Shown piece by piece: positions 3,635-43,282 of a stretch of DNA of 47,953 bases. Numbering within the stretch: position 1 is the first letter of the stretch; the number at the start of each line of letters is the position of its first letter. The position numbers and the translations under genes were made by a program. The notes beneath the pieces were generated by a model. It was not told the origin of the DNA and ran no database searches. It saw nothing but the letters and a program-made list of their open reading frames with translations. Source of the DNA: Fimbriiglobus sp. (GTDB taxonomy: Bacteria > Planctomycetota > Planctomycetia > Gemmatales > Gemmataceae); contig JANXTU010000346.1 in NCBI GenBank assembly GCA_025352235.1, forward strand, positions 1-47,953, in the 5' to 3' direction.

Positions 3635-3813
3635 GGTATGACAACAATTCTTGGAGCCACGGGGGAATGACTTGGGAATCCAAGCCAGGGGAGGCACCTG
3701 AAATCGGACGTAACTCCTTGCGGCGCTAGGTTGTTCCGAAAGTCGGACGTCATTCCACGATAGGGTGGGTGGGTTCACGCTGGAATGATGACTCCAAGAA
3801 TCGTTGGCACACC
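3635..3813. mobile_element. MITE-like element with 25-bp imperfect terminal inverted repeats
   Basis: The left end (3635-3659) and the reverse complement of the right end (3789-3813) agree at 21 of 25 bases, including ATTCTTGGAG. The interior has no ORF of note but repeats TCGGACGT and GGAATGA motifs. The small size and non-coding interior fit a miniature inverted-repeat element. I could not define target-site duplications. The right end precedes the FHA-like gene by about 80 bases. Confidence 0.45.
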
Positions 3814-3891
3814 CTCGGATCAGTTCCCCTTGCGTTTTTCCCAAGTTCCGGCATAAGGCGTCCGGGGACTCGGGACGTTCGGGGGAAAACC

Positions 3892-5940
3892 ATGCGCAGT
3901 GTCGATCCAGTACAGTCCGTCGGGGAATTGGTCCGGCTCTCGGACGGCGCGGTGTGGCCGTTGATGCTCCCGATCACGCTGATCGGCTCCGGGTCGCAAT
4001 GCGACGTGCCTTTGACCGAAGGCCCCGAACTGATGTGCGCCCTCGCGCTCACGCCGGCCGGGCCGGCGCTTCGATCTTGGAATCCGGACGAGACGCGGAT
4101 CGATGGCCTCGCCACGGCGGCGGCGCTGTTGACCGACGGCCGAGAACTGCGCATCGGGGCACAGGAATTCCGATTGACCTGGAAGCCGTTCGTTCAAGCG
4201 GGTGATGCGGAACTCCGCGACCAACTGCGGATCGGGCGGGAGAAATTCCGCACCGAACGCAAGAAGATCGAAGCCGAGCATACCCTCCGGGCCAAGCGGC
4301 TCGACCAAGACGCCGGGCGATTGCGGGAAGGGGAACGAGCGTTAGCCGCCGAGCGGATTCGCGTCCGCGCGATCTACCGGCGATGCATTCAGCGGATCAA
4401 ATCGAAATGGTCGGCCGAACGCGACTCGGCGGACCTCGAACGGGCGAATCACGAATTGTCCGAGGCTCGCTTCCGCGAATTTGCCGAGCGCCGGCGCGTC
4501 GAACTCGACCGACTCGGGGATCAATTGACCGGCGACAAAGCCCGCGTGCAAGCGGCGTGGGAATTGATAGCCGAGGGACAGCGCCGCGCGATCACGGACC
4601 GATCGCAAGCCGATGAATGGCTCGCCCGCCAGCGTGAGGCACTCGACTTGCGGGCGAAGATGTTCCACGAGCAGCAACGGTTACGCGAAGGGAATCGGGA
4701 GGTTTCGGATGCGCGGCCATCGGCGTTGATCACCGAGATCGCCGGGTTGGAAGCGCGGGCTACGAACCTTCGGCAGTCGATCGCCGCGCTCCAGGCCAAG
4801 CGGGAATCGACCGCAGCAGAAGGGGTTTCGTCGTTCGCCCCGGTCGCATTGGAACCGACCCGCGTTTCGCGCGGCGCGGCGCAGCGGGCGGATAGTTTGC
4901 TGACCGAACTCCAAGAGCGGGAGCGGGAACTCGCGCGCGAGCGGCAAATTCAAAGTCATCTCCGCGGGGAACTCGAAACCCGCGCATCCGATCTCGGCGA
5001 TCAGCGGGCCATTCTGGTCGAACAAATCGCGGCGCTCACCGCGGCCCGGGATCTCTGGCATACCGCCGAAAGCCAAACGGTGGACGAACTCCACGCGCTC
5101 GCCATCGGGGTGCGATCCGAAGAGCAATCGCTCGACGAACGCGAACGCGACCTGTACGCGGCCGAGCGAAGGCGTCGGAGCGACGATCACGCGCTGGTCG
5201 AATTGCGCTTCAAACTCGAAAACTGGCAAGTCGCCCTCGCGGCGAAAGAAGCGAGCGTGCAATCCGAAGCGGATCAACTCGGCGAACAATTAGCCGCGAA
5301 ACAAACGCAGATGGATCGCTGGGAAGCGTCCCTCGGCGACACCGCGGCATCGTGGGCTGAACTCCGGCGGCGGGAAGTCTCATTTCTGCGCGCCGAACTC
5401 GACCAACTGGCGCTCGCCCAGGCCGACCACGCGGCGGCCGCGGCGGAGGCCCGCCGACTCCACGCGGACTTCACGGCGCAACTCGTCGCGATCGCGGCCC
5501 GCGACCTCGCGCGCACGGGGGACAAACGCGGCTCGACCCGCCGCGTTCGGGTTTTGGAAAAGCGTTGGCAGGCCCATTTCCGCCGCGAAGAAACTCGGCT
5601 CGTCCGCACTGAAGATCGCATTCGTCGGGAACGGGAAGAACTCGACGACCGCGATCGACGGGTACGACGGGAAGCCGATTCTGTCCTCGCGCAGAGACGG
5701 ACCGATGCCCTGGCCCGGATCGAGTTCGACCGCGACCGCTTGGCCGCGGACCGCAGACTGCACGAAGCTCGCGGCGAAGCCGAGTTGGAAACGCAGCTGC
5801 GCTTTCGGACCGAAGAAGATGCCCGCCGCTTGCGGGGCGAAATCGCCCGGATGGCGCAATCGATCCTCACGGCGAATTTGACTCACCCGGACGAACCGGA
5901 CGCGATCATCCTGCCCTTGAAACTGGTCCGGGCGGCATGA
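3892..5940 (+). CDS. FHA-like domain protein with a very long coiled coil
   Basis: I use the ATG at 3892, preceded by GGGGGAAA, giving 682 residues; the ORF track start at 3769 lies inside the upstream repeat. Residues about 10-105 resemble a forkhead-associated fold: ITLIGSGSQCDVPL is the usual beta-strand and Gly-Ser turn, and GRELRIGAQEFRLTW closes the sandwich. FHA domains bind phosphothreonine peptides. From about residue 110 to the end the protein is a nearly continuous coiled coil rich in Glu, Arg, Ala, Leu and Gln, with no membrane segment. It may be a cytoplasmic scaffold recruited by Ser/Thr kinases, which are abundant in planctomycetes. The pThr-binding residues are not clearly conserved, so ligand binding is uncertain. 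Confidence 0.65.
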   Translation: MRSVDPVQSVGELVRLSDGAVWPLMLPITLIGSGSQCDVPLTEGPELMCALALTPAGPALRSWNPDETRIDGLATAAALLTDGRELRIGAQEFRLTWKPFVQAGDAELRDQLRIGREKFRTERKKIEAEHTLRAKRLDQDAGRLREGERALAAERIRVRAIYRRCIQRIKSKWSAERDSADLERANHELSEARFREFAERRRVELDRLGDQLTGDKARVQAAWELIAEGQRRAITDRSQADEWLARQREALDLRAKMFHEQQRLREGNREVSDARPSALITEIAGLEARATNLRQSIAALQAKRESTAAEGVSSFAPVALEPTRVSRGAAQRADSLLTELQERERELARERQIQSHLRGELETRASDLGDQRAILVEQIAALTAARDLWHTAESQTVDELHALAIGVRSEEQSLDERERDLYAAERRRRSDDHALVELRFKLENWQVALAAKEASVQSEADQLGEQLAAKQTQMDRWEASLGDTAASWAELRRREVSFLRAELDQLALAQADHAAAAAEARRLHADFTAQLVAIAARDLARTGDKRGSTRRVRVLEKRWQAHFRREETRLVRTEDRIRREREELDDRDRRVRREADSVLAQRRTDALARIEFDRDRLAADRRLHEARGEAELETQLRFRTEEDARRLRGEIARMAQSILTANLTHPDEPDAIILPLKLVRAA

Positions 5941-6081
5941 CTCGCCACCGCACGCCCGGTGCAACCGTCAAACTCGATGTCCGAGCGACGGCTCTTTCGA
6001 TGGAATACCCTGATTTTTATGGGGGAAGCGGTTCCATGGCGTAAGCTGGGATTGTAATAGTTGCAATCTCGGAGTTCCGTC

Positions 6082-7074
6082 GTGTCCCGTTTCCCCATCC
6101 TCGTTCTCGCCGCGGCCGCGTTCTTCGGAATCGGTTGCCGGCACAGCTGCAAGGACAATCGCTCGTTCTGCGAGCGTGTGCGGGATCGGTTCGATGACCG
6201 ACGAGACGGCCAACGGCGCGACACGGGTACGGACCGCGAACCGGCGGGGGTGATTCCGCCGCGCGGGGAAACCATCCCGGCGACGCCGCTGCCCGTGACC
6301 CCGCGCAACAGCAATACCATCGATTGGGACCCGAACGCGTCGCTGCCGGCGCCGAAGCGAAGTTCGGAGAAAATTCTCCCATCCGACCCCCCGCGTTCGG
6401 TGCCGAGCGACCCGCTGCTGGTGGTTCCCCCCGGCCCGTCGAATCGCACGCTATTGCTCCCCGATCCGCTGCTGCAAGACCCCCTCAAAACGACTCCGCA
6501 CGATCCGACCTTCGGGATTCTCGGCGAACCGATTCAACCGGACGCGGTGAAGCCGGCCGAAGACGCCAAATCGATCGCCCCCGACACGAAGTCCGATCTG
6601 CCCACCGACGCGCCGCCCGTGGGAGTCGAATCGTTCGCCGCCGTGCCGGGGCAAGATCACGTGGCCGGCGGGAAGAAGCCGACGCTCGAAGGCCTGGATG
6701 CCTTGAAATCGAAGGGGTTCAAGACGGTGCTCTACTTGCACGCGCCGGATGCGGACACGTCGGCCGCGAAGGATCTCGTCGAAAAACGCGGGCTGAAGTT
6801 CGTTACGCTCGCGGTCTCGCCGCAGACCCTCGGCGACGCCGGCAAGACCTTCGCCGAACAGTTGAAGGACGCGGCGTCGAAACCACTGTTCGTCTACGAC
6901 CTCGACGGCGTCCGGGCCGGGAGTCTGTGGTATCTCCAGTTCCGCAAAGTCGATTTGGTGAACGATGACGTCGCCCGCATCCGTGCCGGCGCCCTCGGTT
7001 TGAAAGATGCGGATGCGTCCGAGGAACAAAAGCAATTCTGGATCGCCATCCAAAATCAACTCGCGCAGCGGTGA
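6082..7074 (+). CDS. Lipoprotein with Pro-rich linker and degenerate tyrosine-phosphatase-like domain
   Basis: The likely start is the GTG at 6082 (330 residues), with GGAG about 9 bases before it. The N-terminus is a lipoprotein signal, LVLAAAAFFGIGC, with the lipidated Cys at residue 19, followed by a Cys-containing segment and a long Pro/Asp-rich linker to about residue 200. The C-terminal 110 residues (KKPTLEGLDALKSKGFKTVLYL, then KPLFVYDLDGVRAGSLW) follow the layout of DUF442/beta-lactamase-hydrolase-type phosphatases. The expected HCxxGxR active site reads YDLDGVR, so the catalytic Cys is replaced by Asp. It is therefore probably a binding or sensing domain rather than an enzyme, on the outer side of a membrane. 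Confidence 0.65.
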   Translation: MSRFPILVLAAAAFFGIGCRHSCKDNRSFCERVRDRFDDRRDGQRRDTGTDREPAGVIPPRGETIPATPLPVTPRNSNTIDWDPNASLPAPKRSSEKILPSDPPRSVPSDPLLVVPPGPSNRTLLLPDPLLQDPLKTTPHDPTFGILGEPIQPDAVKPAEDAKSIAPDTKSDLPTDAPPVGVESFAAVPGQDHVAGGKKPTLEGLDALKSKGFKTVLYLHAPDADTSAAKDLVEKRGLKFVTLAVSPQTLGDAGKTFAEQLKDAASKPLFVYDLDGVRAGSLWYLQFRKVDLVNDDVARIRAGALGLKDADASEEQKQFWIAIQNQLAQR

Positions 7075-7087
7075 TCGGACCTGTCGC

Positions 7088-7522
7088 TCATTTCACAATC
7101 TCCGCGACGATCACCATCGGTTCCTTCCGGTAGGTCGCGTAGCTCGTGGGCGTTTCCCACATCGTCACTTCGACCACCGGATAGCCTGCGGATTCGACCC
7201 AGTCGAAAATCAACTTGGCGATGTTCTCGGTCGTCGGGTGTTCGGCCATGTCATAAACCGGCTCGCCGGCGTCGCGGAGGATCGACACCAACGGGTCGCC
7301 CCGGAACAGCAGCATCTTGTGGTCGAGGGTCCGGTCAATCCAATCGCCGATGATCTTCCGCATCGCCGAGAAATCGACGACCATCCCGAGTTCGTCCAAT
7401 TCCTCGGCCGCGACCGTGATCACGGCCTTGCCATTGTGGCCGTGCAGGTGCCGGCACTTGCCAGCGTAATGCATCAGCCGGTGGCCGAAGCAGAAGTGGA
7501 TTTCTTTGGTCACGCGGAACAT
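7088..7522 (-). CDS. queD: 6-carboxy-5,6,7,8-tetrahydropterin synthase (QueD/PTPS family)
   Basis: The 144-residue protein has the PTPS-family zinc and catalytic pattern: HFCFGHRLMHYAGKCRHLHGHN supplies His ligands, a catalytic Cys and the HGHN block, and VVDFSAMRKIIGDWIDRTLDH plus HPTTENIAKLIFDWV are typical. QueD turns dihydroneopterin triphosphate into 6-carboxytetrahydropterin, the first dedicated step to preQ0 and queuosine. It lies 16 bases downstream of queC on the same strand, so the two are probably co-transcribed. The gene ends 13 bases from the convergent lipoprotein gene. queE is not in the window. Confidence 0.9.
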   Translation of the reverse strand: MFRVTKEIHFCFGHRLMHYAGKCRHLHGHNGKAVITVAAEELDELGMVVDFSAMRKIIGDWIDRTLDHKMLLFRGDPLVSILRDAGEPVYDMAEHPTTENIAKLIFDWVESAGYPVVEVTMWETPTSYATYRKEPMVIVAEIVK

Positions 7523-7538
7523 CGCGGTCTCCGGTCGT

Positions 7539-8237
7539 TCATCGGGCGTATTCGGTGGGATCGATCATCTCGGCATCCGCGAAACCGCGGATGCGCTCCG
7601 CGCATTTGTTGCAATGTCCGCAATGCAGTCCGCGCGCCGGGCGGATGCAAGAGAAAGTGAAGCGGAGGGGCATCTGTGCCCCGCGCCTTAGCACTTCGGC
7701 TTTCGTCAGGGCCCCGTCCGCATACGGCCGCAAGATTCGGACGCGGCCGCCGACACTACGGTTCACGGCGTCGGCCATGCCATTGTAAAAGGCGTCGGTC
7801 GCATCGGGGAACGGATTCGACCCCAATGGGGCCGTGGCCAACTCCGGCACACCGTGCAAATGGCACCAGAGAATCGCTTTGCAAAGCAGAATCACGTTGC
7901 GGCCGGGGAGGTACACCGCTTCGTCGGCGGAGTGTTCGTCCGGCGTCCCGAGGCCCGTCAGGCTCCAATGCTCGCCGTACAGGTCGCGGACGGGGAACTC
8001 GAGTTCGACCAAGGGCCGCAGGGACGGCGTCCGCACCGCCCCGAGAAATCGGCGCAAATGATCCCGTTCGACCGGTTCCCAGATCGCCCCGGTGCGGATG
8101 AAGATCGGGTGAATCGCCGGGTAGACCCGCAGCGCTTCCCCCAGCAGGATGGCGCTGTCCAATCCGCCACTGAGGAGGACGGCCAACGGCGACGACGCGA
8201 CCGCGGGGGGCCAATGGGGATCGGAGAATTCGACCAT
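7539..8237 (-). CDS. queC: 7-cyano-7-deazaguanine synthase QueC
   Basis: The protein (232 residues) begins with the ATP-pyrophosphatase P-loop LLSGGLDSAILL and ends with the zinc-binding cysteines of QueC, CIRPARGLHCGHCNKCAERI. The central PLVELEFPVRDLYGEHW and YLPGRNVILL blocks also match the family. QueC uses ATP and ammonia to convert 7-carboxy-7-deazaguanine to preQ0. It is the first gene of a queC-queD pair. The ATG at 8235-8237 has no clear Shine-Dalgarno; TAGAAT lies exactly 6 bases upstream, which suggests a leaderless message. Confidence 0.93.
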   Translation of the reverse strand: MVEFSDPHWPPAVASSPLAVLLSGGLDSAILLGEALRVYPAIHPIFIRTGAIWEPVERDHLRRFLGAVRTPSLRPLVELEFPVRDLYGEHWSLTGLGTPDEHSADEAVYLPGRNVILLCKAILWCHLHGVPELATAPLGSNPFPDATDAFYNGMADAVNRSVGGRVRILRPYADGALTKAEVLRRGAQMPLRFTFSCIRPARGLHCGHCNKCAERIRGFADAEMIDPTEYAR

Positions 8238-9597: not shown

Positions 9598-10405
9598 GGC
9601 ACTCCGGGCAGAAGTGCGATGACCGCCCCGCGACGCGGATCATTTCAATCGCGGTGCCGCACGCCGCACACGGTTCTCCCGTCCGACCGTACACTTTGAA
9701 CTCGTCTTGGAAGCCGCCCCGCAGCCCGGATCCGCCGATGTAATCGCGGATCGTCGAGCCCCGGTATTCGATGGCTTGCGCGATCACGGCTTCGATGGCC
9801 AACCGCAGAGTATCGCACTTCGACCGGGTCAAATTGCTACCGAGCGTTTGCGGATGGAGGCGGCTGCGAAACAACGATTCATCCGCGTAGATGTTCCCGA
9901 CCCCGGCGAGGATCGACTGGTCGAGCAGAATCGCTTTGAGATTCCGCCGGCTCCTCCGCACGGCCGTGGCGAAGGGCTCCGCAGGAATATCGACCGGCTC
10001 CGGACCGAGCGATTCTCCGAAGGCGTGTTGAACGAGGGCATCGCTCGCGATCCACTGCACGCTGCCGAAGCGGCGGACATCGCGGTAGCGCAACTCGTGC
10101 TCGTCGGCGAACGCGAAGGCAAAATGCAGGTGGTCGGGAGGGGGGAGGCCCGCCGGCCCCGCGGTGAATTGCCCCGTCATGCCGAGGTGGACGAGCAAGA
10201 TCGCGCCGGTGTCGAGATCGACGAGGATCCACTTTCCGCGCCGCCGGATGCCAACGACGGTACTCCCGATCAATTCCGTTTCCCAATGCTTCGACCACGG
10301 CTTGCGGAGCTGTTTGGAACCGGTGCGGATCGCCGCGATCGTCCGCCCGACGATCAGCGGACGGAGATCGCGAACGACGGTTTCGACTTCGGGGAGTTCG
10401 GGCAT
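9575..10405 (-). CDS. mutM: Formamidopyrimidine-DNA glycosylase (Fpg/MutM)
   Basis: From the ATG at 10403-10405 the protein (276 residues) begins MPELPEVETVVRDLRP, where Pro2 is the catalytic nucleophile and Glu3 the acid of Fpg. The helix-two-turn-helix block LLDQSILAGVGNIYADESLF and the C-terminal zinc finger (CAACGT then CPECQ) are intact. It excises 8-oxoguanine and other oxidised purines and nicks the strand. The ORF track start at 10495 adds 30 residues before MPELPE and must be wrong, since Pro2 has to be exposed. TATAAT ends 6 bases before the ATG with no Shine-Dalgarno, suggesting a leaderless message divergent from metG. Confidence 0.95.
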   Translation of the reverse strand: MPELPEVETVVRDLRPLIVGRTIAAIRTGSKQLRKPWSKHWETELIGSTVVGIRRRGKWILVDLDTGAILLVHLGMTGQFTAGPAGLPPPDHLHFAFAFADEHELRYRDVRRFGSVQWIASDALVQHAFGESLGPEPVDIPAEPFATAVRRSRRNLKAILLDQSILAGVGNIYADESLFRSRLHPQTLGSNLTRSKCDTLRLAIEAVIAQAIEYRGSTIRDYIGGSGLRGGFQDEFKVYGRTGEPCAACGTAIEMIRVAGRSSHFCPECQKKNPRR

Positions 10406-16575: not shown

Positions 16576-19500
16576 ATGCACGACCTCCGTTGTCTCGCAA
16601 TTCTCATTTCGACAATTCTTAATTCCCAACTCCGCGCCGCCGAGCCGGCTGCGAATATCGATTTCTTCGAATCCAAGATTCGCCCCGTTCTCGTGGAACA
16701 TTGCTACTCTTGTCACAATTCGGCTAAGACCGCCAAGGGCGGGCTGGCTCTCGACGACCGGGCGTCGTTGCGAAAAGGCGGTACGGAAGGTGTCATCGTC
16801 GTTACCGGGAAGCCCGAAAATAGCCGGTTGATCGCGGCTCTGAAACACGAACTCGACGGCAAGGCGATGCCGAAGAACGGACCGAAGCTCGACAAGAGCG
16901 TCATCGCCGACTTCGAGAAATGGATCACGCTCGGCATGCCCGACCCGCGCGACAAGCCGCCGACGGCCGAAGAATTGACGAAAGCCACCTCGTGGGAAAC
17001 GATCCTCGAAGCCCGCAAGAAATGGTGGAGTTTCCAGCCGATCCGCAATCCGACGCCGCCAGAATCCGGGTGGTCAAAGCACCCGGTCGACCAATTCATC
17101 GCGGCGAAACTCAAAGAGAATAGGCTCGAACCGGGCGCACCCGCCGATGCTGTCACGCTCATCCGCAGGTTGTATTTCACCCTGATCGGCCTGCCTCCGG
17201 CGCCGGCCGACGTGGAACGATGGACGACGAAGTTGAAGTCCGAAGGCGGCTATGAAGAACTCGTCGATCACCTGCTCGGCACCCCGCAATTCGGCGAGCA
17301 CTGGGCCCGCCACTGGATGGACTGGACGCGCTACGCCGATTCGCACGGCTCCGAAGGCGACCCGGAAATCGTCGGGGCGTGGCACTACCGCGACTACCTC
17401 ATCCGCGCGCTCAACGCCGATGTGCCGTACGACCAACTCGTCCGCGAGCACGTCGCCGGAGATTTGTTGAAGGCCCCGCGCATCAACAAGAAACTCGAAC
17501 TCAACGAATCGGCGATCGGCACCGCGCACTGGCGGATGGTCTTCCACGGCTTCGCCCCGACCGACGCGCTCGAAGAAAAGGTCCGTTTCATCGACGACCA
17601 GATCAACACCTTCTCGAAGGCCTTCTTAGGCCTCACGGTGTCGTGCGCCCGTTGCCACGATCACAAATTCGATCCGATTAGCCACAAAGATTACTACGCC
17701 TTGTTCGGGGTGCTCGCGTCGAACCGGCCGGGGCGAATCGCCGTGGATAGCCCGGAGAAGTCGGAAAAGAATAAGGCTGAGTTGGCGGCGCTGAAAGCGA
17801 AAATCCGCGAAGTCGTCGGCGACGCTTGGTTGGCCGGCATCGGAGGGGGCTTGAAGACCGCGAACGACTCGGGGTCGATCCTCAAGCTCGTACGGGAGTT
17901 GAAAGCGGTCGACGGCGACGCGGAGAAATTCAAAGCCGTATTCGACCGCCACATGATGGAATCGGAGAAAGATCGCCGCGCGATCGCGCGGCCGACGGCA
18001 AACACGTTGAAGAACTGGGACTTGGCGGATGCGAACGATGCGGCGACTTGGTTCCGGGTCGGTGGCGCGACGCGCTCCGCGAACGCCGACTTCGCCGTGG
18101 CGACCGATGGCGACCGGGCGCTGGCCGGGGTCTATCCGCCCGGCATTTACTCGCACGGACTTTCCACGAAGCACGCCGCGAGACTCGAATCTCCCCCCGT
18201 CAAACTCACCGCCGATTCCGAACTCTGGGTCCGCGTCATAGGCGACGGCGGCGCGACGCTGCGGTATGTCGTCCAGGATTACCCGCGCGATGGAACCGTC
18301 TTCCCGGTTCACCGGCTGACACCGCAATGGCACTGGCAGCGGTTCGACCTGACCTACTGGACGGGCGACGAGATCCACATCGAATTGGCCGCGTCGCGGG
18401 ATGCGCCGTTGATGGCAGGTGGTTCCGAGCGATCTTGGTTCGGGATCCGCGAGGCTAGGATCGTCAAAAAAGGGACGTTCCAGCCGCCGCTCGAAACCAT
18501 CGACTGGCGTGCGCCGCTCAACGCGGCTTTCGCGCCGAAGATACCGAACTCTTCGGCCGAAGCCGCCGAGGCCTACGCCTCCGCCATTTTCGCGGCCGTC
18601 CGCGAATGGAAGAGCGGCCGAGGATCGCCCACGACGGCCGCGCTGCTGGCGAAGTGTTTGGAAGAAGGATTGCTATCGAACAAATTCGCGGACATGAAAG
18701 CCGTCCAGCCCCTCATCGATGAATACCGCAAACTCGAAGCCGAGATCGCCGTGCCGACGCGGGTACCCGGTTTGATGGAGGGCGTCGTGCGGAATCAGCC
18801 GCTGCTCGACCGGGGCGACCACAAAAAGCTGAAAGCCGAAGTGCCCCGGCGATTTCTGGAAGCCATCGACCCGACCCCCTACAAGGGAACGGACAGCGGT
18901 CGATTGCAACTCGCCGAAGATATGCTGAGCGACAAAAATCCGTTGACCCAGCGCGTGATCGTCAACCGGCTTTGGCACCACTCGTTCGGACGGGGACTTG
19001 CGCCGACGCCCGACAACTTCGGCCGGCTGGGCCTCGAGCCGACGCACCCGGAACTCCTCGATTTCTTAGCGACACGCTTTGTCAAACAAGGCTGGTCGAT
19101 CAAGGACGCGCTGCGATTTTTGGTCACATCCAAAACTTGGCAACTCGCTTCGAAGCCGACCGAACAAGCTCGGCGACTCGATCCGGACAACCGCTGGTTC
19201 TCGCACGCCTTGTTGCGCCGGCTCGACGCCGAGGCGATCCGCGATTCCCTGCTCGCGGTCAGCGGGTCGTTGAATCGCGAACTCTACGGTGCCCCCGTCG
19301 GCGGCAATTCGGATCGCCGGAGTCTGTACGTCCGCGTCCAACGCACGGCCCTCGATCCGTTCCTGCGGGCCTTCGATTTCCCCGAGCCGTTCAGCGCCGT
19401 CGGCCGGCGCGATGTCACCAATGTCCCGGCCCAAGCGCTGACGCTGCTGAACGATCCCCGCGTCGCGGCGCTCGCCGACCATTGGGCCGGACAAATCCTC

Positions 19501-20589
19501 GCCGAACCGGAATGGACCGAAGAAGAACCGCGGCTCCAACGCATGATCCAAACGGGGCTCGGTCGCCCGGCCACGCTCGCCGAGATCGCACAATTTCGAG
19601 CTTACTTGCTCGAATCGAAGAAGGATCGCGTGCTGCGGCAGATCCATTGGACCGAACTCCAAAGGCGACTCGACGAAAATCACAAGGTCGTCCGCGACCT
19701 CCTCGAACCGGCCCGGGCGAAGTTGCTGAAGGAGGTGAAGGACAAGCCGAACGCCGACGAGAAACGACTGGCGAAACCGATCGCGAAGTGGGATTTCCAA
19801 GACTCGCTGAAAGATCGCATCGGATCGCTCCACGGCGAAGCCGTGAACTCGGCGAAGCTGATCGATGGGAGTTTGAACGTTGGTGGCCGAGCCCACGTCC
19901 TCACGGTGCCGCTCGCCAAAACGATCCGCGAGAAGACACTGGAAGCATGGGTTCAACTCGATAGCCTCGATCAAGCCGGCGGCGCAGCCATGACGGTCCA
20001 AACCAAGGATGGCGGCGTTTTCGACGCCATCGTCTTCGGTGAGAAAAACGCGGGCCAGTGGGTCGCGGGCAGCAACGTCTTCCGGCGGACGCAATCGCTC
20101 GGAGCTCCGGTAGAGGCCGAGGCGAACCGGCGCGTGGTGCACCTGGCCATCGCGTACCACGCCGACGGGAAAATCGTCGCCTACCGCGATGGGCAACCCT
20201 ACGGCACCGGCTACCAGTCGGTCGGACTTCAAGAATTCAAGGCGGGCGAAGCGGTCGTCGGCTTCGGGATCCGCCACTCCCCGGCCGATGGGAATAAGGT
20301 GCTCGCGGGTAAAATCGTCCGGGCCCGGCTCTATGACAAGGCACTGTCAGCGGAAGAGGTGCTCGCGTCGTTCGGTTCGGTTTCGGGTTCGATTCCGGAA
20401 TCGAAAGTGCTCGGAGTGCTGAGTGCGGGCGACCGCGACAAAGTGATCGCCGCGAAAACGCGTCTCGCGGGGCTCGAAGCCGAACTGCGCGCGGCCGGGC
20501 CGGTTCCGACCGCTCTCGACGATCGCGCCGTTTGGGCCGACATCGCGCGGGCGGTCTACAATTTCAAAGAGTTCATCTACATCAAATAG
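16576..20589 (+). CDS. Planctomycete-type c-type cytochrome (DUF1549/DUF1553) with internal LamG-like domain
   Basis: The 1337-residue protein starts with a signal peptide ([22 protein letters not shown]). A cytochrome c motif CYSCH lies at about 43-47, within VRPVL-type PSCyt1 sequence. DUF1549 follows ([36 protein letters not shown]) with a second CxxCH in [12 protein letters not shown] near residue 357. DUF1553 is towards the C-terminus ([40 protein letters not shown]). After it comes a jelly-roll, LamG/concanavalin-like domain (about 1070-1260, [26 protein letters not shown]). Such proteins are abundant in planctomycetes and are thought to be periplasmic redox proteins for polysaccharide or sulfatase-linked metabolism; the role is unproven. 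The DUF1501 gene follows after 7 bases. Confidence 0.9.
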
Positions 20590-38183: not shown

Positions 38184-39137
38184 TTATTTCGACAAGATCT
38201 CGTAGGCCCCGGTCGGGTATTGCCCGTAGGGGTTGCTCTGGATGCCGTTGGCGGCGGAGCTGACATACCCGCCCGGATCGCGGGTGATCTTGATCTTGAT
38301 GATCTTCGTGTCCCCGTTTTTGAGCGACCCGGCGTGGACGGCCGCGACGCCGATGTTCGAATCGGCCGTGTACGTGCCGGTCCCCCAGACGGTGCCGAGG
38401 TTGCTGCCCGTCACTTGGATGCGGACGGTTTTGCCCATGTGCGTTTGGAAGAGCTGGTAGAAGTTCGCCGGCTCGACCAGTTCGAGTTTGTCGTCCGCGG
38501 CCGAAATGCCGCCCGATTGCAGCGTGCGCGCGTCGGTGATGCGCAGTTTCAATTCGCCGAATTGGAACGTCCAGATGCGCAGTTGCGTCGCCGCGATCCG
38601 CCCCGAGAATTGCGATTCGTCCGTGGTGATCGTGTCGGTATCGCGCGGGGCATTCTTGCGGGCTTCCCGATCGCCGGCCACGGCCTCGTACACCATTTCC
38701 AAATGCGGACGGCTCTCGGCGTCGGCTTTACGAAGGGCCGATTTCAAAAACGGGGCGATCTTGCCGCCGAGGGTTTTCAGTTGGGCCTTCCCTTCCTCGC
38801 GGACTTTGGCTTCTTTGGAACCGATGGCGGCGAGGGCGGCGTCGAATGTCCGCTGTTCGCCTGGGCTGAGGCGGACGCCGAATTCGATTTTGCGGATGTC
38901 CTTCACGGGGATGGACAGGTCGCCGTGGGGCGTTTGCAATTGCAGTTGCTCGTCGAGTAGGGCAACCTTCAGCGTGCTGTTGTCGGTGAAGAGCACTTCC
39001 CAATCGCCGCCGGGGGGCTTGGCCTTCGCCGGGACTTCCGGTTTGACGCCGGGGTCGCTACCCGGTGTTGGCACCGGTTGCCCCGCACCGAGGGATGCGA
39101 ATGCCAGCAGAAGTACCCAAGTGCGAATCCGGTCCAT
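38184..39137 (-). CDS. Secreted LCCL-domain protein
   Basis: The 317-residue protein has a signal peptide (MDRIRTWVLLLAFASLGAG), a Pro/Lys-rich stretch, a beta-rich region with DIRKIEFG and a helical middle, then a C-terminal LCCL domain from about residue 240 (VWGTGTYTADSNIGVAAVHA, then NGIQSNPYGQYPTGAYEIL). LCCL domains were defined in animal extracellular proteins such as cochlin and also occur in bacteria; the cysteines of the animal domain are missing here. The protein is probably extracytoplasmic and binds a ligand. The N-terminal half resembles planctomycete proteins of unknown role. It is divergent from nothing and stands alone between tpiA (convergent) and the FlhB-like gene. Confidence 0.8.
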   Translation of the reverse strand: MDRIRTWVLLLAFASLGAGQPVPTPGSDPGVKPEVPAKAKPPGGDWEVLFTDNSTLKVALLDEQLQLQTPHGDLSIPVKDIRKIEFGVRLSPGEQRTFDAALAAIGSKEAKVREEGKAQLKTLGGKIAPFLKSALRKADAESRPHLEMVYEAVAGDREARKNAPRDTDTITTDESQFSGRIAATQLRIWTFQFGELKLRITDARTLQSGGISAADDKLELVEPANFYQLFQTHMGKTVRIQVTGSNLGTVWGTGTYTADSNIGVAAVHAGSLKNGDTKIIKIKITRDPGGYVSSAANGIQSNPYGQYPTGAYEILSK

Positions 39138-39218: not shown

Positions 39219-39491
39219 TCACCCCGGCTTGTTCGCCTTCAGCAAAAAGGCCAAGATCGTCGCGATAGCTTGGTAGAGTTGCGGCGGGATCTCTTGATCG
39301 ACTTTCATCCGGCTGAGCACGCCCACGAGGGCCCGGTCCTCGCGGACGGGGATGCCGTTCTTCTTGGCGAGCGCGAGGATGCGCTCGGCGAGCGCGCCCC
39401 GGCCCTTGGCCACGACCTTCGGCGCGGTGTCGCGGGCGGGATCGTACCGCAGCGCCACCGCCTTTTTTTGCTGGTTCTCGGCCACGCTCAC
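39219..39491 (-). CDS. FlhB C-terminal-domain-like protein (FhlB/YlqH type)
   Basis: The 90-residue protein matches the cytoplasmic domain of FlhB after its NPTH cleavage site: KKAVALRYDPARDTAPKVVAKG, then NGIPVREDRALVGVL and DQEIPPQLYQAIATILAFLL. It has no membrane part and no NPTH motif, as in FhlB/YlqH proteins that can stand in for the cleaved half of FlhB in flagellar export. The GTG start at 39489-39491 overlaps the TGA of the FliK-like gene (GTGA), so translation is probably coupled. FlhB with FliK sets the export substrate switch, so the pair makes functional sense. A TGA-linked start rules out the longer ORF to 39722. Confidence 0.85.
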   Translation of the reverse strand: MSVAENQQKKAVALRYDPARDTAPKVVAKGRGALAERILALAKKNGIPVREDRALVGVLSRMKVDQEIPPQLYQAIATILAFLLKANKPG

Positions 39492-41089
39492 GCCCTCGCA
39501 TTGACGATGGAACCTGATTCCGGTCGGATCGTCGCCCGCTTCTTGACGCGCTCCGGCCAATCGGCCAGCGGGCGCACATCGAGCAGCGCTTCGCGGAATC
39601 CGCCGGCCAACAACTCGGCTTTCAGCGCGGGGAGTTCCGGGGCCAAGCGATCGAGCACCGCCTGCGATTGGACGTAGACCACGGCGAAGAAGCGGTCGTC
39701 CTGCAACCCCGCTTCGATCCATGTTTCGCCGAGCCCGCTCAGGGGGACTTGCATCATCATGCGGAACGCTTTGGCCTGCTGTTCGCCCTGCTCGTCGGTT
39801 TCGTATTCCGGTTCGAGGGCGAGGTTCAACGTACGCCAGCGGCCGCCGTCGATGTACGGCACTTGGTAGACATAGGCGCCGCCGGTCTCTTTCGCGAAGA
39901 CGTTCTGCGCTTGTTGGGCCTCGATGCTTTCGAGCGTCCGCTGGGCGACGGGGAATTGAGCGTGGGCCAACGTCGGCAGGGCTTGAAACAACCTCAGCAA
40001 GCCGCCTTTGAGATCCGGGGTGCGATCCGCCGTCGCCCGCGATTCCCCGCTCGCTTCGCGGCCGAGCTTGGCTTCGTAGTGCTGACCGCCGTCTTCGACC
40101 GCCGCGCGGATTTGTTGGGCGCTCGGCGGCGCGTGCGTTGACACCACCCGAGCGGGGGGTGTCAACCCCCCGTGGGATCTTCCAGATCCGACCGGGATCG
40201 ATTCCGAATCCGAGACCGTTTGCAGAAGCTCGCGCACCTCCGACGCGTCCGCCGAGGCCGGGAACTTCTGCACGAATGCGGCGATCGTCTTTTGGAGCTC
40301 GGCCGTCGAAGCCCCTTCGAGAACTTTGGCGGTGAGATCGGCCACAAGTGCGTGGACTTCGGGGATCGCGGAGGCCGGAGCTTCCAACGCCTTCGGTGTC
40401 ACCGCCGTCAACGCGCTGCGGATTTCGGCCACGGCCCGTTGTTGCGAACTGATTTTCTGCCCGAGTACCGTGGGGGGCACGCTCTCGAGTTCCGTCAACA
40501 GCGGCGGCACCGCTTCGGCCAGCGGCGACGGTTGTTGAATCCGCAGAATCGCCGCGGCGACGAGCCTCGGGAGGTCGGGCGTTTCGGGCACCGGCCCCAG
40601 TTCGACCCCGTCCGGCGTGCGCCGCACGAGAGCGACGTACCGGCCACCCGGTTGCAGCGGCTCCTGCGAAGTCGCCTTCAATTCCTCCCCTTCGATTTTC
40701 ACCAGCACTTGGCCCGTCGGCTCGCGGCGCAGCACCTCGACGACCGACACCTGCGCGGCGTTCCCCGGCGTCCGCGGTGCGACGGGGGTCGTGTTCGAAA
40801 CGGCGACCGGAGTCACCGCCTGCGGGAGGATCTCGAGTTGCGGGTTCGTTTTGCCACCCGTGACGCGCAGCGTGAGCGCGTCGCCGGTTTTCAGATTCAC
40901 CGAATCGCGGACGAGGATGACGGTGTTGCCGAACTTCAGTTCGGCCTGACCATTTTGAATCCGGCCGACCGTCGCCGCGACGATGCTGGTCTGGATGTTG
41001 GAAATGTTCCCCGCCACCAAGCGCAGCGTTTGCGCCGTGACGGCGGGCGTCGCGGCGAGCGTGGCCGAGTTGACGGGATTCACTTGCAT
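39488..41089 (-). CDS. FliK-like hook-length control protein
   Basis: From the ATG at 41087-41089 the protein has 533 residues. The N-terminal part is Ala/Thr/Pro-rich and low in complexity; about residues 410-530 resemble the FliK C-terminal domain (YEPEYETDE region, MQVPLSGLGETWIEAGLQ, VVYVQSQAVLDRLAPELPAL). FliK measures hook length and switches the export apparatus from hook to filament through FlhB. Here the gene is followed directly by an FlhB-like gene but no other flagellar gene lies nearby. The linker contains a palindromic repeat (40137-40166). The ORF track start at 41299 extends into the upstream gene. The family call rests on a weak C-terminal match plus the FlhB neighbour. Confidence 0.7.
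   Translation of the reverse strand: MQVNPVNSATLAATPAVTAQTLRLVAGNISNIQTSIVAATVGRIQNGQAELKFGNTVILVRDSVNLKTGDALTLRVTGGKTNPQLEILPQAVTPVAVSNTTPVAPRTPGNAAQVSVVEVLRREPTGQVLVKIEGEELKATSQEPLQPGGRYVALVRRTPDGVELGPVPETPDLPRLVAAAILRIQQPSPLAEAVPPLLTELESVPPTVLGQKISSQQRAVAEIRSALTAVTPKALEAPASAIPEVHALVADLTAKVLEGASTAELQKTIAAFVQKFPASADASEVRELLQTVSDSESIPVGSGRSHGGLTPPARVVSTHAPPSAQQIRAAVEDGGQHYEAKLGREASGESRATADRTPDLKGGLLRLFQALPTLAHAQFPVAQRTLESIEAQQAQNVFAKETGGAYVYQVPYIDGGRWRTLNLALEPEYETDEQGEQQAKAFRMMMQVPLSGLGETWIEAGLQDDRFFAVVYVQSQAVLDRLAPELPALKAELLAGGFREALLDVRPLADWPERVKKRATIRPESGSIVNARA
40137..40166. repeat. Palindromic repeat inside the FliK-like coding sequence
   Basis: GTTGACACC and GGTGTCAAC form a perfect 9-bp inverted repeat with a 12-base centre rich in C and G. 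It is translated as part of a Gly/Pro/Ser-rich segment and keeps the frame. It resembles intergenic palindromic units, so it may be an inserted element tolerated in a linker. Confidence 0.55.
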
Positions 41090-41135: not shown

Positions 41136-42077
41136 TCAATCGGAAACCGACTCGCCGCCGTTGCGGGAACCCCACGCGGTCCAAATCGACGGCGAGATCG
41201 ACACCGGAATGAAACGGACCGATCCGTCGGCGAACGCCGCGTTGACGCCACCGAGATGGAGACTCCGCGCCGCCAAACGCCCTTTCTGTTGCGTCGCATT
41301 CATGCAGTCCGCGTTGGGAGAATCCGGCGGTTCGGCGTGGTTGTAGAGGGTGTTCCCGTAGTTGCCCACGATCCATTTCCCGCCGCGTTCCCCGTTCCAA
41401 ACACCGGTCGCTCCCGAACAAGCGGCCGGCGTCGGTTCCGTGACGCCGGGAAGTTCTCGGATGGCCAGCCGGTGCGTCGGATCAAGGCTGCCGCCGCCGA
41501 GAGGTCGCTCGGCGAACAGGGCCGTGTTCGTCGCCCCGTCGGTGATGTCCACGATCCGCACGGCGGAATTGGTGAAAAAGAGGCCGTCCGCGGCGACGAG
41601 CGAACCGCCGGCCGTTCCGCTGCCCGCGTTACCGGCGTAATTCGTACCCGCTTGCGTGATACCGGGAACTCGGCCCCCGGCCGGATCCGCCGGGCAGACG
41701 AATGCGCCGATGCGCGTGCGCGCGGCCGGGTCGTTTCGACTCCCGTCGAAGACGATCCCGGGCGCCGTGTAAAAGATGGGCGGCGATGCAAAATCGACGA
41801 GACCACGGACCCCGTCCTGTTCGAGGTGCGGCAGCAAATAGGCGTGTGCCGAAAAGATTGCCGGCGCGGGCGTGCCCCGTCCGGCCGGGAAATACCCCTG
41901 GCTACCGTGGTGGCCGTGCGCCGCCAATGCGAGTTGCTTGAGGTTGTTTGAACACGAGATCCGCGCCGCCGCGGCGCGAACTTTTTGAACGGCCGGCAGG
42001 AGCAAGCCCATCGCGATCCCGATGATGGCGAGCGCGACCAACAGTTCGATCAAACTGAAAGCCGGGCGGCGCGGCAT
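41136..42077 (-). CDS. DUF1559 family prepilin-like protein
   Basis: The 313-residue protein begins MPRRPAFSLIELLVALAIIG, a type IV prepilin signal (cleavage before Phe, Glu five residues later), followed by LLLPAVQKVRAAAARISCSN and NNLKQLALAAHGH, the DUF1559 hallmark. It ends FADGSVRFIPVSISPSIWTA, the usual DUF1559 tail. These proteins are present in very many copies in planctomycetes, are secreted as pseudopilins, and lack a known role. The ATG overlaps the TGA of the upstream sorbosone dehydrogenase-like gene by one base (TGATG), so translation is coupled. The ORF track start at 42575 is wrong. Confidence 0.93.
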   Translation of the reverse strand: MPRRPAFSLIELLVALAIIGIAMGLLLPAVQKVRAAAARISCSNNLKQLALAAHGHHGSQGYFPAGRGTPAPAIFSAHAYLLPHLEQDGVRGLVDFASPPIFYTAPGIVFDGSRNDPAARTRIGAFVCPADPAGGRVPGITQAGTNYAGNAGSGTAGGSLVAADGLFFTNSAVRIVDITDGATNTALFAERPLGGGSLDPTHRLAIRELPGVTEPTPAACSGATGVWNGERGGKWIVGNYGNTLYNHAEPPDSPNADCMNATQQKGRLAARSLHLGGVNAAFADGSVRFIPVSISPSIWTAWGSRNGGESVSD

Positions 42078-43282
42078 CACTTCGCCTCCGCCGCGATCCG
42101 CCAGACGCGATTGGCCAGTTCGTCGACCACCAGCAACGAACCGTCCTTGGCAACCGCGACGCCGACGGGGCGGCCGTAGACTTCGTCGTCGTTGGCGATG
42201 AAGCCGCTCAAGAAATCCTCGGCCGGGCCGGAGGGTTTGCCATCTTGGAAGGGCACGAATATGACGCGGTAGCCGGCGAATTTCGATCGATTCCACGAGC
42301 CTCGCTGGCCGACGAAAGCACCGCCTCGGAATTTTTCGGGGAACGCCTTCGCGTCGTAGAAGGCGAGGCCGAGCGAGGCGGTGTGCGATCCGAGCGGGAC
42401 GTCGGGCGCCATGGCCTTCGCCACGAGATCGGGGCGTTCGCCCTTGCGCCGCGGGTCTTCGTTTTGCCCCATGTACGAATACGGCCAACCGTGGAAGCTG
42501 CCGTCCGGGACGCCCGTGATGTAGTCGGGTACCAGGTCGTCGCCGAGTTGGTCGCGCTCGTTCACGGCGGTCCAAAGGGCGCCCGACTTCGGCTCGAAGG
42601 CCATGCCGACGGGATTGCGGAGACCGCCGGCGAACACGCGCAGGCCGGTGCCGTCCAAATTGATTTCGAGGATATTCGCTCGGAGGATCTCGTTCGCGGT
42701 GCCATTCTCCGCGACGTTGCTGCCCGACCCGACCGACACAAAGAGCTTCTTGCCATCTCGGCTCGGGAGCAAATTGCGAGTCCAGTGGTTGTTGTAACCG
42801 CCCGCGGGGAGGTCGAGTATTTTCCGTCCCTTTCCTTCGAGGCCGGTTTGATCGGTCTTATACGGGAACGACATAATCGCGTCGGTATTGCCGACGAAAA
42901 ACGTCTCGCCGACCAGAGCCATTCCGAGGGGAAGGTTCAAATCTTTCGCGAAGACTTCTTTTAACTCCGCCGCGCCGTCTTTGTTGGTATCGCGGAGCAG
43001 CGTAATCCGGTTGGCCCCTTTTTTGCCTTTGTCCGGCGTCCGCGTTTCGGCCACGAGAACGTCGCCGTTCGGCAAGACGTAGAGCCAGCGCGGGTTGTCG
43101 AGCCCGTCCGCGAACACGGAGACGCGGAATCCGGGTGGGGCGACCGGCATTTTGTCTTTGGGCCAACCGATGACTTTGGGGAACTTCGTGACGGACGGAG
43201 TTTCGTTCGGCTTGGGCAAGGCCGGCTTCGGGTCGTCGGCCGGATGCCCGAGGATCGATAGGAGTGCGAGGGTCGCGAACAT
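42077..43282 (-). CDS. Sorbosone dehydrogenase-like (PQQ-type beta-propeller) protein
   Basis: The 401-residue protein starts with a short signal peptide (MFATLALLSILG). It follows the beta-propeller of L-sorbosone/glucose dehydrogenases: GFRVSVFADGLDNPRWLYVL, GDVLVAETR, NLPLGMALVGETFFVGNTD, GGYNNHWTRNLL, GGLRNPVGMAFEPKSGALW, NERDQLGDDL, and HGWPYSYMGQ. Family members use PQQ and Ca2+ to oxidise sugar aldehydes in the periplasm; whether this one binds PQQ cannot be confirmed here. It heads a minus-strand cluster with the DUF1559, FliK-like and FlhB-like genes. It may act on carbohydrate breakdown products. Confidence 0.85.
   Translation of the reverse strand: MFATLALLSILGHPADDPKPALPKPNETPSVTKFPKVIGWPKDKMPVAPPGFRVSVFADGLDNPRWLYVLPNGDVLVAETRTPDKGKKGANRITLLRDTNKDGAAELKEVFAKDLNLPLGMALVGETFFVGNTDAIMSFPYKTDQTGLEGKGRKILDLPAGGYNNHWTRNLLPSRDGKKLFVSVGSGSNVAENGTANEILRANILEINLDGTGLRVFAGGLRNPVGMAFEPKSGALWTAVNERDQLGDDLVPDYITGVPDGSFHGWPYSYMGQNEDPRRKGERPDLVAKAMAPDVPLGSHTASLGLAFYDAKAFPEKFRGGAFVGQRGSWNRSKFAGYRVIFVPFQDGKPSGPAEDFLSGFIANDDEVYGRPVGVAVAKDGSLLVVDELANRVWRIAAEAK

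Follow-up and report, generated by a model that had tools for sequence, protein, structure and literature searches.

Gene content of the locus

The window, by which we mean the whole stretch of 47,953 nucleotides analysed here, carries on its minus strand a fliK-like gene followed by a small gene that encodes a free-standing FlhB C-terminal domain (flhX). The initial annotation had described this arrangement as a FliK and FlhB(C) gene pair, and both halves prove to be real. The two genes and their neighbours are the following:

38184 to 39137, minus strand: LCCL-domain protein, downstream and outside the module (PF03815, E = 6.7e-11)
39219 to 39485, minus strand: flhX, 88-aa free-standing FlhB C-terminal cytoplasmic domain (PF01312, TIGR00789), start assigned by comparison with relatives
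39488 to 41089, minus strand: fliK-like gene, 533 aa, beginning MQV as in relatives (PF02120, E = 4.6e-5)
39575 to 39787, minus strand: Flg_hook (FliK C-terminal) domain of the fliK-like gene, profile match
41136 to 42080, minus strand: prepilin-type DUF1559 (SBP_bac_10) protein, outside the module (PF07596, E = 6.4e-39; PF07963, E = 3.7e-7)
42077 to 43282, minus strand: GSDH or PVC-type dehydrogenase-like protein, outside the module (PF07995, TIGR02604)

The window FliK-like protein scores 23.6 bits against PF02120 (Flg_hook), with the Pfam gathering cut-off at 29.8 bits. The same domain is matched by 12 of 14 family orthologues (best E = 3e-10), several of which lie above the cut-off in the genome searches. 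Furthermore, hhalign aligns the FliK-like profile with the FliK-like proteins paired with FlhX in other phyla (E = 3.7e-24), and searching solved structures with a profile of the FliK-like alignment returned nothing relevant.

FlhX (88 to 90 aa) matches only the last 78 positions of PF01312 (profile 257 to 334 of 335, E = 7.7e-22, above the cut-off), which is the cytoplasmic C-domain without the membrane part, and among solved structures those of FlhB cytoplasmic domains are nearest to it. The best NCBIfam model by far is TIGR00789 (flhB_rel, "FlhB-like flagellar biosynthesis protein"), matched by all 15 aligned FlhX members at E ≤ 0.001; the window protein reaches 104.2 bits, 13 bits below the curated cut-off of 117.35, and is assigned to the FlhX/TIGR00789 relatives by clade and not by that cut-off. 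FlhB cuts itself at an NPTH site to yield a C-terminal fragment. The genome's own FlhB reads NPTHYAVALRY here and FlhX reads NQQKKAVALRY, with NQQK in place of NPTH. FlhX begins where FlhB has this site and is thus the counterpart of the C-terminal cleavage product. The FlhB-like half was rightly described at the outset as lacking both NPTH and the membrane part.

In relatives, FlhX mostly starts with MA, 1 to 4 nt past the FliK stop, and the window gene therefore most likely starts at the GTG at 39485, leaving a 2-bp gap to the fliK-like gene. The GTGA overlap by which the initial annotation saw the two genes coupled corresponds to a GTG at 39491, a possible but unlikely start.

With respect to the neighbourhood, the upstream pseudopilin and sugar dehydrogenase genes noted earlier are indeed there, as the DUF1559 prepilin-type and GSDH-like genes on the same strand. 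The GSDH and LCCL genes sit elsewhere in the relatives examined, unlinked to the pair, and an operon of the pair with the prepilin and dehydrogenase genes is thus unsupported. Genome searches gave no flagellar match on this 48-kb contig (C49) besides the pair itself.

Flagellar genes elsewhere in the genome

The genome to which the window belongs (G000; 5.49 Mb, 613 contigs, 90% complete) encodes a flagellar export apparatus on another contig, C524, with a complete FlhB including NPTH (18721 to 19743), the one that the initial annotation proposed to look for, FlhA (16608 to 18569) and, in the same gene run, FliR, FliP, FliI, FliF, FliE, FlgC and FlgB. In addition, a second and stronger FliK, the canonical one, is found on C572 (81.7 bits), and the genome has five Flg_bbr_C proteins. 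The pair can therefore be part of a flagellar gene set, as had been suspected from the window, and the presence of full FlhB, FlhA, FliF and canonical FliK indicates that it is additional equipment of a flagellated organism and not a stand-alone export system. Searches of G000 detected no second set of export genes.

An identical 20-bp element, CAAGAATCGTTGGCACACCC, is present at 3795 to 3814 of the window and at about 9711 to 9731 of locus L038 on C524, where the flagellar contig ends in repeat-like sequence. It is possibly a dispersed repeat.

Position of the pair in relatives

The pair was first noted as lying away from other flagellar genes, which is true of its contig in G000 and untrue of most relatives. 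In 18 of the 23 family genomes that carry it, including the congener G002, the pair is directly divergent from flgB (17 with pair and flgB on one contig, plus G052, where a contig gap interrupts an otherwise identical order), adjoining the flgB end of an operon that runs flgB-flgC-fliE-fliF...flhB-flhA. Of the other five, G022 has flgE and the canonical fliK near the pair and G028 carries the canonical fliK some 8 kb from it on one contig; in the remaining three (G000, G056 and G063) the pair is apart from recognised flagellar genes. A place beside flagellar genes in every flagellated relative, the finding that the initial annotation named as speaking against its reading, is thus largely what we observe, with the exceptions of six FlhA-positive genomes that have no pair and of FlhA-negative G063, which has one.

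The best reading of these positions is a local relocation in G000 from the side of flgB to unrelated genes. In a fragmented assembly this rests on a short stretch, as C524 ends 357 bp past flgB, and on the unrelated neighbourhood of C49. The 613 contigs and the repeat-like sequence in which C524 ends could also fit an assembly artefact, with the pair truly beside flgB and C49 misjoined. However, the fliK start of G002 lies about 110 bp from flgB, so fliK should show within the 357 bp of G000, and no fliK start is found there. Moreover, the pair does not sit at a contig end: the 48 kb of C49 continue on either side of it, with neighbouring genes at short distance, and G056 and G063 likewise carry it elsewhere. 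We therefore give a misjoin almost no credence.

Distribution among relatives

The sample comprised 119 genomes (own and relatives) that are at least 90% complete, with about 71 in the window organism's own Gemmataceae-type family, a size that was inferred. FlhX is present in 23 genomes of this family and the FliK-like gene, searched for independently, in exactly the same 23, always encoded directly upstream and nearly always abutting. The pair occurs in 22 of 28 FlhA-positive family genomes compared with 1 of about 43 FlhA-negative ones (G063; Fisher P = 6e-12, a value that treats related genomes as independent and uses an approximate FlhA-negative count, family size being inferred). Outside this family, FlhX was found in two genomes of a second planctomycete family (G075 and G080), with PF02120 matches in the open reading frame directly upstream.

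The six FlhA-positive family genomes without the pair, together with most flagellated families of the class, which likewise have none, indicate that it is dispensable. Canonical FliK is kept in the pair-less flagellated genomes G015, G019, G025, G038, G044 and G050, as well as in G071, a flagellated and pair-less member of a sister family, which marks the pair as accessory.

The window pair could be a decaying relic that left the flagellar operon and is no longer in use, its task being covered entirely by canonical FliK and FlhB; the presence of both proteins in G000, the flagellated relatives that manage without the pair and the terminal branch of the window FlhX (0.46, among the longer ones of its family in the tree) are in line with this. 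Against it, both frames are intact and abutting, and the window FlhX retains the conserved residues of its family, so that we regard decay as unlikely.

The FlhX family across phyla and known systems

A scan of genome contigs recovered FlhX relatives from Bacillota, Nitrospirota, Desulfobacterota-type bins, Hydrogenedentota, Alphaproteobacteria and others. Flg_hook is found at E ≤ 0.01 in 29 of 35 upstream FlhX partners from outside the window organism's family, the 35 comprising 33 from the contig scan and 2 from G075 and G080. A tree of 70 C-domains separates 49 FlhX from 21 FlhB sequences in a clean split (support 0.998) without a misplaced tip, which indicates that FlhX is an old family and rules out that it arose recently by local copying of the FlhB C-domain.

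The gene context of these relatives varies, with the pair lying near FliM/N-type and sigma-factor genes in a Hydrogenedentota genome and near fliS in a Pelobacter genome. The Paenibacillus and Alicyclobacillus pairs come after a gene for a ribosome-binding GTPase and rnhB, with no recognised flagellar genes around them. This order is presumably that of ylqF-rnhB-ylqG-ylqH in Bacillus subtilis, where we take ylqG-ylqH to be the Bacillota pair of FliK-like and FlhB-like (TIGR00789) genes. As in the window, the TIGR00789 proteins of Bacillota come from a small gene for an FlhB C-domain that immediately follows a FliK-like one; the two pairs differ in their neighbourhood, which is that of rnhB in Bacillota, and in the score of the window FlhX, under the TIGR00789 cut-off. 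The canonical FlhB and FliK share their domains with the pair (FlhB cytoplasmic C-domain and Flg_hook), but FlhX has neither the membrane part nor NPTH and falls in a separate clade, and the canonical copies lie elsewhere in G000.

Published work already includes FlhX among flagellar export proteins (PMC10746217). A survey places the flhX-fliK of Nitratiruptor (Campylobacterota) outside the main flagellar cluster (PMC9321776); this flagellated bacterium resembles the window organism in having a free FlhB C-domain gene and fliK in such a position. The window organism differs in its second, canonical FliK, and most of its relatives have their pairs beside flgB. In Helicobacter pylori, HP1575 (FlhX) is an FlhB C-terminal homologue alongside a full FlhB, as in the window genome, and the title of the original report (Wand et al. 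2006, J Bacteriol 188:7531, as cited in PMC3040844) calls it a "spare part" enabling export once the C-domain of FlhB has been deleted. Our literature search found no paper treating Gemmata flagella together with FlhB. The window pair is thus of the already named flhX-fliK kind, ordinary apart from its position in G000.

A probable accessory export-switch pair

Taken together, the evidence makes the pair, flhX-fliK, a probable accessory of the flagellar export switch in a flagellated Gemmataceae-type planctomycete, moved in G000 from beside flgB to an unrelated neighbourhood. In such a pair, the C-terminal domain of the FliK-like protein would bind FlhX, and/or FlhX would replace the FlhB C-domain at the export gate. 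The pair may thereby modulate or back up the hook-to-filament specificity switch, by analogy with the "spare part" of the HP1575 title. What looked like an "orphan" switch pair is then explained as a widespread flhX-fliK module displaced from the flagellar operon, and the Gemmataceae-type genomes with the pair, without it and with the pair minus the export genes offer a natural comparison for FlhX function.

The other possibility raised by the initial annotation is a derived export system. The pair would then serve in non-flagellar export or at the surface, perhaps with the prepilin-type neighbour, having lost its flagellar role. Such a system would suit the setting of the window pair, closely spaced and co-oriented with genes that are not flagellar, as well as the intact pair of G063, a genome without FlhA, FlhB and FliF. 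However, the pair tracks FlhA across the family and adjoins flgB in most of its carriers, the GSDH and LCCL neighbours are unlinked to it in relatives, and the G000 searches revealed no second export apparatus. We consider such a system very unlikely.

G063, a genome with the pair and without export genes

G063 (590 contigs, estimated 100% complete) carries its intact pair at about 5904 to 7717 of locus L047 (G063:C11:25000-37000), flanked by HDOD-domain and kinase genes as in the flagellated relatives G037, G055, G060, G049, G058 and G066. Searches of this genome found no FlhA, FlhB, FliF or canonical FliK, and nearly all rod and hook proteins are missing. In this single genome the flagellum may have been lost recently, the binning may be incomplete, or the pair may have a non-flagellar role. 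That the role of FliK-like protein and FlhX outlives the flagellum, as G063 might suggest, seems highly improbable to us; if true, the pair would be a switch module reused outside flagellar export, and G063 is the only part of this analysis that might repay a further look.

Two further observations concern the same genome. A radical-SAM gene lies where the flagellar operon would be expected, and the sole FlgE/F/G-type protein is encoded by a lone 733-aa open reading frame among non-flagellar genes (L071:9124-11325, on G063:C97), with the FlgE/F/G-type domains in its C-terminal third.

FlhA- and FlhB-type genes in other relatives

We also observe variants of the FlhB self-cleavage motif among the relatives, with NPLH in G006 (L041:1110-2207) and NPSH in G043 (L042:15709-16788). 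Genomes of family f3 (e.g., G073, G087, G096 and G111) show strong FlhA matches and weak FlhB matches (E 1e-20 to 1e-44), the latter often ending before the cytoplasmic C-domain, and no FliK match was found in them; these FlhA- and FlhB-type genes perhaps represent a non-flagellar type III system. In family f6 (e.g., G076, G098 and G113), a second FlhA-family protein is encoded by an open frame of about 510 aa, which matches the C-terminal half of the profile only (about 309 to 656).
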